DNA of 64,000 bases. It comes from Pseudoxanthomonas sp. SL93. GTDB taxonomy: Bacteria; Pseudomonadota; Gammaproteobacteria; Xanthomonadales; Xanthomonadaceae. The stretch lies in the NCBI RefSeq assembly GCF_026625825.1, contig NZ_CP113065.1:186001-250000 (forward strand), read 5' to 3'. A program made the position numbers and the translations under genes. A model generated the notes under the pieces. That model had not been told where the DNA came from. It searched no databases and worked only from the letters and a program-made list of their open reading frames with translations. Positions 48,742 through 51,839 of this stretch are shown one piece after another (position 1 is the first letter of the stretch; each line of letters begins with the position of its first letter).

Positions 48742-49880
48742 GCGATGTGGTCGAACTGTCCAGTGAGCTGATCCGCCGCCATTCGGTGACGCCGGATGAC
48801 GCCGGATGCCAGCAGGTGCTGGCGACGCGGCTGACCCAGGCCGGGTTCCACTGCGAATCGCTGCGCTTCGGCGACACCGACAACCTGTGGGCGGCGCATG
48901 GCACGGGTTCGCCGGTGCTGGTGCTGCTGGGACACACCGACGTGGTGCCGCCCGGCCCGCTTGATGCATGGACCAGCGATCCGTTCATTCCCACCGTGCG
49001 CGACGGCGTGCTGTACGGGCGTGGGACCGCCGACATGAAATGCAGCGTGGCCGCGTGCACCATCGCACTGGAGCGGTTTGTCGATGCGCATCCGGACCAT
49101 CCGGGTACCGTGGCGTTGCTGGTCACGTCGGACGAGGAAGGCGATGCGCATGACGGCGTGAAGAAAGTGGCCGCGCTGTTCCGCGAACGCGGGCAGAAGA
49201 TCGACTGGTGCATCACCGGCGAGCCGTCCTCCAAGGAGACGCTGGGCGACCTGCTGCGCGTGGGGCGCCGCGGCACCCTGACCGGCACGCTCAGCGTGCG
49301 GGGCGTGCAGGGCCATGTGGCCTATCCGCACAAGGCGCTGAATCCCATCCACAAGGCCTTGCCGGCGCTGGCGGAGTTGGCCGCGCGGCAATGGGACGAG
49401 GGTTACGAGACGTTCCCGCCGACCAGCCTGCAGATCTCCAACATCCATTCCGGCACGGGCGCCAGCAACGTCATCCCCGGTGAGCTGCAGGTGGTGTTCA
49501 ACCTGCGCTTCAACCCCAGCTGGACCGCGGAGAAGCTGGAGCAGGAAATCGAAGGCCTCCTGCGCCGGCATGGCGTGGACTATCGCGTCCACTGGCACCG
49601 CGGCGGCGAGCCGTTCTACACGCCGGAAGGCCACCTGCGCGCGACGGCGCGTGCGGTGCTGGCCGAATTCGCCGGCGCGCCACCGGAAGAAAGCACGGCC
49701 GGCGGCACCTCCGACGCGCGTTTCATCGCCCCACTGGGGGCGGAGTGCATCGAGGTGGGGCCGGTCAACGCCAGCATCCACAAGGTGGACGAGCACGTCG
49801 CCCTTGCCGACCTGGAGGCGCTCCCCGGCCTCTACCAGGCGCTGGTGGAGCGGCTGATGCTCGCGGACCGGGCTGGCTGA
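48738..49880 (+). CDS. dapE: Succinyl-diaminopimelate desuccinylase
   Basis: A 380-residue dinuclear zinc M20 peptidase-family enzyme that makes LL-DAP for lysine and peptidoglycan. Metal ligands: His66 and Asp68 in [11 protein letters not shown], Asp in [13 protein letters not shown], Glu pair in [14 protein letters not shown], and a late His in [11 protein letters not shown]. The dimerisation lid region has [25 protein letters not shown] start overlaps the preceding stop by 4 nt. The asnB attenuator region begins right after its stop. Confidence 0.96.
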
Positions 49881-49918
49881 GATACCGGGGCGGCGTGTTT
49901 CGCTTTCGGATGAAACAG

Positions 49919-49947
49919 TTGCCAAGCGGCGGCGCGACCGGTTACGT
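49919..49947 (+). promoter_or_regulatory. Candidate promoter of the asnB leader
   Basis: TTGCCA (49919-49924) and TTACGT (49942-49947) at 17-nt spacing. Transcription would start about 49953-49956, at or very near the leader ATG at 49955, implying a leaderless leader peptide. The -10 match is only moderate. Confidence 0.45.
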
Positions 49948-49954
49948 TCGCCCC

Positions 49955-50038
49955 ATGCCCTGCCGCACCGCCACCAATAACAACCGCAACAACCTGCGCG
50001 CGAACAATCGTGCGCGGGCGATGCGGCTCTGCGACTAG
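49955..50038 (+). CDS. Asparagine-rich leader peptide of asnB
   Basis: A 27-codon open frame directly upstream of asnB. Seven codons are Asn, in three clusters: AAT AAC AAC (49976-49984), AAC AAC (49988-49993) and AAC AAT (50003-50008). The rest is Arg/Ala-rich. It ends TGC GAC TAG, 26 nt before the terminator hairpin. A longer in-frame start at 49910 (42 codons) exists but has no ribosome site. The density of Asn codons, the position and the alternative RNA structures identify it as a regulatory leader peptide whose translation would stall when Asn-tRNA is uncharged. Not recognised as a known named leader. Confidence 0.85.
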   Translation: MPCRTATNNNRNNLRANNRARAMRLCD

Positions 50039-50092
50039 GCAACGAAAGACCTGCCGGATACCAGAAACCCGCATCGCAAGATGCGGGTTTTT
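49993..50092 (+). promoter_or_regulatory. Transcription attenuator of asnB (asparagine-responsive)
   Basis: Three competing RNA structures. Protector: CCTGCGCGCG (49993-50002) pairs with CGTGCGCGGG (50009-50018), a 10-bp stem with two G-U pairs; its loop is the Asn-Asn codon pair. Antiterminator: GCGATGCGG (50018-50026), inside the last leader codons, is perfectly complementary to CCGCATCGC (50069-50077), the 5' arm of the terminator and its loop. Terminator at 50065-50092. A ribosome stalled on the Asn codons disrupts the protector and frees the antiterminator; fast translation allows termination. Inference from sequence, with all parts visible. Confidence 0.82.
50065..50092 (+). terminator. 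Attenuator terminator of asnB
   Basis: A 10-bp stem AAACCCGCAT/ATGCGGGTTT with a CGCAAG loop, followed by more T. It sits between the leader stop and the asnB ribosome site (AGGAG). Confidence 0.93.
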
Positions 50093-50135
50093 CCGTTTCT
50101 GGCGACCCCTTCGAACCCCACCCAGGAGTTTTCCC

Positions 50136-51839
50136 ATGTGTTCCATCTTCGGCATCTTCGGCCTGCAACCCGGCGACGATCACGCGGCGCTGCGACGACA
50201 GGCGCTGGAACTCTCCCAGCGCCAGCGCCATCGCGGTCCCGACTGGAGCGGGGTCTATCTCGACGACGGTGCGATCCTGGTGCACGAACGGCTCGCCATC
50301 GTCGATCCGGCGGGCGGTTCGCAGCCCCTGCTGTCCGAGGACGGAGGCTTGGCGCTGGCCGTCAATGGCGAAATCTACAACCACCGCGAACTGAAGAAGG
50401 CGCTGGCCCAGCCCTATGCGTTCCAGACCGGCTCGGACTGCGAAGTCATCAATGCCCTGTACCGCGAGGACACACCGGCGTCGTTCCTCAACCGCCTCAA
50501 CGGCATCTTCGCGTTCGCACTATGGGACAAGGCCAAGGGCAGGGTGCTGGTCGCGCGCGACACGATGGGCGTCTGCCCGCTGTACTGGGGCCATGACCGT
50601 GAGGGCCGCCTGCGCGTGGCGTCGGAAATGAAATCGCTGGTCGACAGCTGTGCCGACGTGGCGCAGTTCCCGCCGGGCCACTATTACGACAGTGCCAGCG
50701 GCGAGCTGGTGAAGTACTACCAGCGTCCCTGGCGCGACTACGACGCGGTCGCCGACGTGGAAGTGGACCGGCAGGAGCTGCGCGAGGCCTTCGAGCGGGC
50801 CGTGCACCGGCAGCTGATGACCGACGTGCCGTATGGCGTGCTGCTGTCGGGCGGGTTGGATTCGTCGCTGGTCACCGCGGTGGCCGCGCGCTATGCGCGC
50901 CATCGCATCGAGGAGGACGACAAGTCCGAAGCCTGGTGGCCGCGCCTGCATTCGTTCGCGATCGGACTGAAGGGTTCGCCCGATCTCGCGGCGGCGGCGG
51001 TTGCCGCGCAGGCGCTGGATACCGTGCACCACGGGTTCGAATACACCTTCGAGGAAGGACTGGACGCATTGCCGGAGGTCATCCGGCACATCGAAACCTA
51101 CGACGTCACCACCATCCGCGCCTCCACGCCGATGTACCTGCTGGCGCGCCGCATCAAGGCGATGGGCGTGAAGATGGTCCTGTCCGGTGAAGGGTCGGAC
51201 GAGATCTTCGGCGGCTACCTGTACTTCCACAAGGCACCCAACGCGCGCGAATTCCATGAGGAACTGGTGCGCAAGCTGGATGCGCTCCACAACTACGACT
51301 GCCTGCGCGCCAACAAGTCGATGATGGCGTGGGGCGTGGAGCCGCGCGTGCCGTTCCTGGACCGCGAGTTCATGGACGTGGCGATGCGGATGGACGCACG
51401 CTACAAGATGGTGGAAAAGCGCAGCACCGGGCCGGAACGCATGGAAAAAGGCATCCTGCGCGCCGCGTTCGAAGGTTATCTGCCCGATTCCATCCTGTGG
51501 CGCCAGAAGGAGCAGTTCAGCGATGGCGTGGGCTATGGCTGGATCGACGGGCTGAAAGCGCATGCCGAAGCACAGGTGAGCGATCGCGAGCTGGCCGCTG
51601 CCGCCAGGCGCTTCCCGGTCAATCCGCCGCTGACCAAGGAGGCCTACTACTACCGCAGCCTGTTCGAACAGTTCTTCCCGACACCGGCCGCGGCGGAGAC
51701 GGTGCCTGGCGGCAAGTCCATCGCGTGTTCGTCGCCGGCGGCCATCGCATGGGATGCCAGCTTCGCGAACGCCGCCGATCCTTCCGGTCGCGCCGTCGCG
51801 GGCGTGCACGAGTCGGCCCTGCAGGCCTCGCCGACATGA
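50136..51839 (+). CDS. asnB: Asparagine synthase (glutamine-hydrolysing), AsnB type
   Basis: A 567-residue cytosolic amidotransferase that makes asparagine from aspartate, glutamine and ATP. The class II glutaminase nucleophile is Cys2 in MCSIFGIFG, which remains exposed after Met removal. RHRGPDWSGV, HERLAIVDP and VNGEIYNH complete the glutaminase half. The synthase half has the PP-loop LLSGGLDSSLVTA, then GEGSDEIFGGYLYFH and EPRVPFLDREFMD. AGGAG lies ahead of the ATG. The NTF2-like gene overlaps its stop by 4 nt. Regulated by the Asn-codon attenuator upstream. Confidence 0.97.
   Translation: MCSIFGIFGLQPGDDHAALRRQALELSQRQRHRGPDWSGVYLDDGAILVHERLAIVDPAGGSQPLLSEDGGLALAVNGEIYNHRELKKALAQPYAFQTGSDCEVINALYREDTPASFLNRLNGIFAFALWDKAKGRVLVARDTMGVCPLYWGHDREGRLRVASEMKSLVDSCADVAQFPPGHYYDSASGELVKYYQRPWRDYDAVADVEVDRQELREAFERAVHRQLMTDVPYGVLLSGGLDSSLVTAVAARYARHRIEEDDKSEAWWPRLHSFAIGLKGSPDLAAAAVAAQALDTVHHGFEYTFEEGLDALPEVIRHIETYDVTTIRASTPMYLLARRIKAMGVKMVLSGEGSDEIFGGYLYFHKAPNAREFHEELVRKLDALHNYDCLRANKSMMAWGVEPRVPFLDREFMDVAMRMDARYKMVEKRSTGPERMEKGILRAAFEGYLPDSILWRQKEQFSDGVGYGWIDGLKAHAEAQVSDRELAAAARRFPVNPPLTKEAYYYRSLFEQFFPTPAAAETVPGGKSIACSSPAAIAWDASFANAADPSGRAVAGVHESALQASPT

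Follow-up and report, generated by a model that had tools for sequence, protein, structure and literature searches.

Upstream of asnB, the 64,000-nt stretch of Pseudoxanthomonas sp. SL93 DNA analysed here (hereafter, the window) carries what is very probably a transcription attenuator of the classical ribosome-mediated kind, by which charged tRNA-Asn would be sensed and this gene controlled. The reading draws on the parts of the leader, their conservation, the covariation of their pairings and their dependence on ribosome position, all computed here; transcription start, leaderless translation and the response to Asn we infer. If the reading holds, leader-peptide attenuation would extend to one more amino acid, asparagine, and asnB would gain a testable mode of control in this group of bacteria. 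The locus comprises the following features:

49919..49924, + strand: –35-like element TTGCCA, part of a conserved TTGC-N17/18-TNNNNT arrangement
49943..49948, + strand: –10-like element (TACGTT; spacer 18) that ends 6 nt upstream of the ATG, called by comparison with relatives
49955..50038, + strand: leader peptide ORF of 27 codons, seven of them Asn, read from the sequence and kept in relatives
49962..49972, + strand: segment 1, pairing with 50017–50027 in the ribosome-free fold of 49945–50100
49976..49984, + strand: first putative control cluster, Asn codons 8–10, read from the sequence
49988..49993, + strand: second putative control cluster, Asn codons 12–13, read from the sequence
49993..50018, + strand: predicted hairpin of 11 bp spanning the third Asn cluster, arms 49993–50003 and 50008–50018
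50003..50008, + strand: third putative control cluster, Asn codons 17–18, read from the sequence
50018..50026, + strand: segment 2, the putative antiterminator 5′ strand GCGATGCGG, complement of 50069–50077
50063..50092, + strand: conserved intrinsic terminator (–20.7 kcal/mol, z –6.9), with 5′ arm (segment 3) at 50063–50075, loop at 50076–50079 and 3′ arm (segment 4) with U-run at 50080–50092
50124–50128, + strand: AGGAG, before asnB
50136..51839, + strand: asnB, the putatively regulated gene (NF006949, 883 bits vs. a cut-off of 499)

By its match to the NF006949 profile, asnB encodes a glutamine-hydrolysing asparagine synthase B. It is preceded in the window by dapD, an ArsC/Spx-like gene and dapE, the last of which adjoins it and ends 255 nt before its start; a gene further upstream is, from reading its ORF, presumably glnD. 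The leader peptide, MPCRTATNNNRNNLRANNRARAMRLCD, runs from an ATG at 49955 to a TAG at 50036–50038 and agrees with the initial annotation of this DNA, which had described a leader of 27 codons, seven of them for Asn and grouped in three clusters. The same annotation had placed all parts within 100 nt of asnB, which is too narrow: leader and terminator (49955–50092) lie within about 180 nt of it.

Across the 3.85-Mb genome, the pattern AAYAAYN{0,9}AAYAAY matched 20 times, three of them, more than expected by chance, within the asnB leader, and the backwards pattern used as a control matched 17 times. Screened by open frame, the other 17 Asn-pattern matches lay mostly inside long frames, and two (L203 and L204) fell in short frames according to ORF lists; at L203 (1490–1530), the Asn-pair motif NNSNN is found within a 35-aa open frame. 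No match was located near asnS of the same genome. An asparaginyl-tRNA synthetase is encoded (631 bits vs. a curated cut-off of 342.6), so that free Asn can be loaded onto its tRNA and charging follows the free amino acid.

For comparison, loci were collected from named genomes (L001–L080) and from 250 genomes of the same order, 207 of which gave some asnB match; 190 loci were read over the 450 nt nearest the gene start, and five duplicates removed. The 119 distinct upstream regions from close asnB relatives comprise 47 of family f1, read as Xanthomonadaceae because its named duplicates are Stenotrophomonas, Thermomonas and Lysobacter; 30 of family f12, read as Rhodanobacteraceae because its named duplicates are Dyella, with 31 of the 46 genomes carrying a full-length asnB sampled; three of family f2; and 39 from L001–L040, L020 having been left out from the start on account of its Rhodococcus label. 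Named records of Xanthomonas, Stenotrophomonas, Lysobacter, Dyella and Rhodanobacter are included. A short ORF with at least four Asn in 12 codons was present in 109 of these 119 regions as against 9 of 2380 dinucleotide shuffles, and one with at least five in 102 as against 0 of 2380, the regions being related sequences that here and in our other statistics on relatives are counted as if independent.

Ten regions fell below the Asn threshold (L013, L014, L015, L038, L130 and L165–L169). In four of them (L013, L015, L130, L165) the element was nonetheless recovered, despite the low Asn count, by a covariance model built from 54 sequences with terminator pairs only and run on the 250 genomes. 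ORF count and covariance model together thus find the element absent from 7 of 120 regions (L014, L038, L166, L167, L168, L169 and L020). The asnB genes of L014, L020 and L038 are 75–83% identical to that of the window and lack the leader, on contigs labelled Holophagales, Rhodococcus and Deltaproteobacteria, respectively; these genes may have been transferred without the leader, or the contigs may be mislabelled.

None of 200 shuffles matched or beat the folding energy of the window's terminator hairpin, in keeping with the strong terminator that had been described before asnB. In 106 of the 109 leaders, a hairpin with a U-tail and an energy of at most –8 kcal/mol follows 20–36 nt 3′ of the leader stop; our script missed it in the other three (L030, L032, L142), which the covariance model finds whole. 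Segment 2 of the window (GCGATGCGG, 50018–50026) perfectly complements CCGCATCGC at 50069–50077. The 9-nt perfect complement of the first reading therefore stands, yet it does not fall wholly in the terminator 5′ arm as stated there, with seven nucleotides in the arm and two in the loop. Taken by itself, the window's complementarity is marginal against shuffles (p = 0.063), and it is the comparison with relatives that makes the antiterminator firm.

Between the last Asn codon and the terminator, where segment 2 lies, a contiguous run of at least seven complementary to segment 3 was found in 90 of 106 leaders; 76 of the 106 had complementarity above that of shuffles at p ≤ 0.05, and 48 at p ≤ 0.01. 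The last Asn codon begins 14 nt upstream of the start of segment 2 in 52/106, and segment 2 ends 5–7 nt short of the leader stop in 69/106. Across lineages, its pairing is retained through compensatory changes, with GATGCGGGT/ACCCGCATC, GCGGGCC/GGCCCGC and CGCGGGC/GCCCGCG replacing one another, and GCAGGCC/GGCCTGC in L017 and L129. Over 54 aligned sequences picked to differ, compared with 500 shuffles, 83.2% of antiterminator cells were paired (27.6–41.8% when slid by 1–3 columns), 34 cells had changed on both sides vs. 17.1 in shuffles, and the covariation score was 0.164 vs. 0.090 (0/500); further pair types, one of the five measures, did not rise above shuffles (76/500). The corresponding values for the terminator were 94.1% paired cells and a covariation score of 0.266 vs. 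0.135, with two of five measures not above shuffles (237/500 and 464/500). A core-anchored table places 95 of the 106 leaders; the window is among the 11 dropped, because its core reads GCGGC. Finally, the native segment 2/segment 3 duplexes of 86 distinct pairs were stronger than all 20000 permuted pairings, a result that holds with the 56 pairs left after similar leaders were collapsed. Conserved Asn codons and antiterminator covariation in related asnB loci, which the initial annotation had named as a check, are thus both seen, compensatory changes included, and the ribosome-mediated attenuation architecture that it had proposed is supported by the Asn codons, terminator and antiterminator shared with relatives.

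The third Asn cluster does lie in a hairpin, of 11 bp instead of the 10 bp first given. This hairpin had been taken for a protector; it covers no antiterminator segment beyond the shared base 50018, so it is no protector in the trp sense, and is possibly a pause hairpin. Folding of 49945–50100 in silico, likewise suggested at the outset, did reveal an alternative pairing, in which the partner of segment 2 is segment 1 (49962–49972) and not the proposed protector. According to this fold, segment 1 can cover the antiterminator segment and would thereby block the antiterminator in an untranslated leader; the antiterminator energy computed for the window without a ribosome is just –2.1 kcal/mol.

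Dependence on ribosome position was computed with the ribosome front placed 14 nt past the point where the A-site codon begins, energy being the hold of the upstream RNA on segment 3 and equilibrium folding taking the place of the kinetic race. In the window, the codons of the first Asn cluster gave –10.4, –10.4 and –8.2 kcal/mol, those of the second –5.6 and –5.6, and those of the third –8.2 and –10.2; two codons later the value was –0.5, and with the ribosome at the stop –2.5 kcal/mol. Medians over the 106 leaders were –10.9 kcal/mol at the last Asn codon, –1.3 at the stop and –3.7 without a ribosome, and last Asn and stop differed by at least 3 kcal/mol in 85 leaders. Thirteen of the 21 leaders under this difference belong to family f12; in L023, whose last Asn codon stands alone, the preceding run gives –17 kcal/mol, and such a lone last codon may explain the f12 exceptions. 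Asn positions were stronger than the mean of rotated positions in 106/106 leaders and the best of all rotations in 56/106. The computed geometry is therefore one in which a ribosome on the control codons frees segment 2 and a ribosome at the stop covers it. Control codons of known leaders from E. coli ranked similarly among rotations (thrL 2 of 22, hisL 1 of 17, leuL 2 of 29), as did those of four ilvC-type leaders (3 of 38, 3 of 39, 2 of 38 and 2 of 43). An earlier, probability-based test was less clean (≤0.3 at the stop in 42/106 leaders; 0.82 at the stop and 0.87 without a ribosome in the window) and was replaced by the energy version because it counted weak arm-flank pairing.

As any ribosome stalled in the control region would act in this way, and the link to Asn is drawn from sequence only, attenuation might be real and yet sense a general slowing of translation or a leader-binding protein instead of Asn-tRNA charging. 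We consider this very unlikely, since Asn is the only residue enriched across the families' leaders and folding predicts a control position that falls on the Asn codons. The same leaders argue against the ORF encoding a functional small protein whose Asn codons serve the peptide: although a RANNRARPM stretch, which would favour such a role, is kept in many Xanthomonadaceae leaders, lengths range from 20 to 45 aa, little besides the Asn runs is common between families, and the common peptide stretches coincide with pairing RNA segments, leaving that role extremely improbable.

In 108 of 109 relatives, all but L136, a TTGC-N17/18-TNNNNT arrangement lies ahead of the leader start. A strict promoter (TTG box, 15–19 nt, NANNNT ending 4–9 nt before an in-frame start) is present in 74 of the 109, to which TTGC with a looser –10 element adds 34. 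The –10 element ends 6–7 nt before the leader start in 98/108 cases and the spacer is 17 or 18 in 107/108, with starts (107 ATG, 1 GTG) chosen among 2.5 candidates per leader on average; at any position, the background is 305/42404 for the loose test with 6–7 nt and 740/42404 for the strict test with 4–9 nt. A stricter sigma-70 scan found no site in the window's leader promoter region, and the promoter call consequently rests on the comparison. Given this conserved position, transcription should start on or next to the leader AUG. Shine-Dalgarno-like 4-mers precede 14/108 leaders vs. 103/109 asnB genes, and none was seen before the leader ORF of the window; judging from these sequences, the leader mRNA is probably leaderless. 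Neither the conserved promoter nor the probable leaderless start featured in the initial annotation. If the leaderless start is true, ribosome–polymerase coupling would begin at the first nucleotide of the transcript, and the attenuator would offer a simple case for studying how coupling is set up.

That the terminator instead ends the upstream dapE operon, with the asnB promoter below it and the Asn-rich ORF incidental, would suit the window, where dapE is directly upstream, but the conserved promoter sits between upstream gene and leader, the terminator-to-leader-stop distance is fixed, only 20 of the 70 loci tested have the dapE end no further than 433 nt from asnB, and 37 of the 40 loci without dapE in the examined upstream DNA (345–2500 nt) keep the leader, so that this reading, to which we attach almost no credence, was rejected because the dapE neighbourhood is not kept at many of the other leader loci.

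Under the attenuation reading, RNA polymerase would start at or within 1–2 nt of the leader AUG from the promoter at 49919–49948, and the first ribosome would probably load on a leaderless mRNA. When Asn-tRNA is ample, this ribosome would reach the stop at 50036 and cover segment 2 (50018–50026), leaving segment 3 to pair with segment 4 and transcription to end after about 138 nt. When Asn-tRNA is scarce, it would wait on an Asn codon with its front edge just before segment 2; the free segment 2 would then pair with nascent segment 3, no terminator would form and asnB would be transcribed. Without a ribosome, segment 1 (49962–49972) would hold segment 2 and the terminator would form.

This organization resembles E. 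coli thrL, leuL and hisL, which likewise combine runs of cognate codons with an antiterminator and a terminator and yield the same folding profile, peaking at the control codons and falling just after; they differ in amino acids and operons and are annotated as ordinary leader genes. Within the SL93 genome, the second-best match to the asn model (E 9.2e-9) is an ilvC leader (L226; G000:C1:3483195-3483316, minus strand) with the peptide MLQRHTPPTTDLTAPAAASVLVLVLITSPTGAGRTGA, and similar leaders occur at L227–L230, the ilvC identity being confirmed by NCBIfam for L226 only. It shares with the asnB leader a segment 2 containing GTGCGGG, a terminator 23 nt after the stop and the folding profile, but is rich in Val/Leu/Ile, senses branched-chain amino acids and controls ilvC; being of the classical type, it serves as an internal control. 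A leaderless counterpart is the Sinorhizobium meliloti trpL/rnTrpL attenuator RNA, which by 5′-end mapping begins with the ATG of its leader ORF, and which differs from the asnB leader in responding to Trp and in being alphaproteobacterial (PMC7298713).

Control of Asn genes by tRNA-Asn charging also has a precedent in the Asn-specific T-boxes of Firmicutes, found at asnS in a few species; there, tRNA binds the RNA directly with no leader peptide or ribosome, unlike at asnB, and T-boxes occur in 2 of 125 proteobacterial genomes (PMC2494555). No T-box was among the Rfam matches up to E 10 for 49880–50180, and at gathering score the whole window returned only a tRNA, located elsewhere. The best weak matches were to the terminators of Thr_leader (17.9 bits, gathering score 55) and Leu_leader (13.9 bits, gathering score 50). 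Among the papers listed by full-text searches of the openly accessible literature, none with an Asn attenuator came up, and the initial annotation likewise knew of no established one. Vitreschak and colleagues (2004) reportedly surveyed the attenuators of proteobacteria, and an earlier mention may stand there. Main-text sections of two further attenuator surveys contain no Asn leader (PMC2965389, PMC1262725). We file as new the addition of Asn to the amino acids of ribosome-mediated attenuators that the asnB leader, on its sequence, would represent.

Of 728 Asn codons in the leaders, 345 are AAU, as compared with 50 of 332 for asnB itself in L001–L040 (Fisher odds 5.1, p = 8e-26, kinship ignored), and 8 of 38 in five genes of the window. 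To our knowledge, Asn is without isoacceptor tRNAs. For this reason, the AAU excess is not accounted for by the argument of Elf and Ehrenberg that the choice of synonymous control codons matters for sensitivity, which, in passages of their paper, concerns isoacceptor tRNAs (PMC1183508). An unlikely but conceivable extension is that the attenuator also reads the state of tRNA-Asn itself, by AAU-dependent stalling, e.g. through wobble modification, together with a trans-acting role of the ~138-nt terminated RNA, as RNA or peptide, like that of rnTrpL.

Across the 99 genomes of families f1, f12 and f2 with a full-length asnB, cross-reading of model and asnB match lists placed a covariance-model match (E 1.1e-8 or better) directly upstream of asnB in 95, about 28 of which had contributed to the model; the misses were G091, G237, G067 and G230. 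The sample's nine other families gave a best match of E 3.1e-7 (G064:C24:7299-7434, minus strand), and the genome concerned had no hit in the asnB search. Weak matches were common (225/250 genomes at E ≤ 0.01) and mostly terminators, so only strong matches adjoining asnB were counted. Among asnB loci outside the three families (L041–L080), 3 of 40 had at least four Asn in 12 codons, their own shuffles giving 8.4%, and families f7, f9 and f5 of the same order showed an Asn-rich short ORF in just 1 of 25 regions. Class-wide, where the covariance-model search covered 274 genomes, this type of asnB was found in 4 of 203 (search at E 1e-100). Twelve secondary model matches from the order-level and class-wide runs were inspected: five proved to be ilvC-type leaders, and in the other seven a terminator followed the end of a gene or a tRNA.
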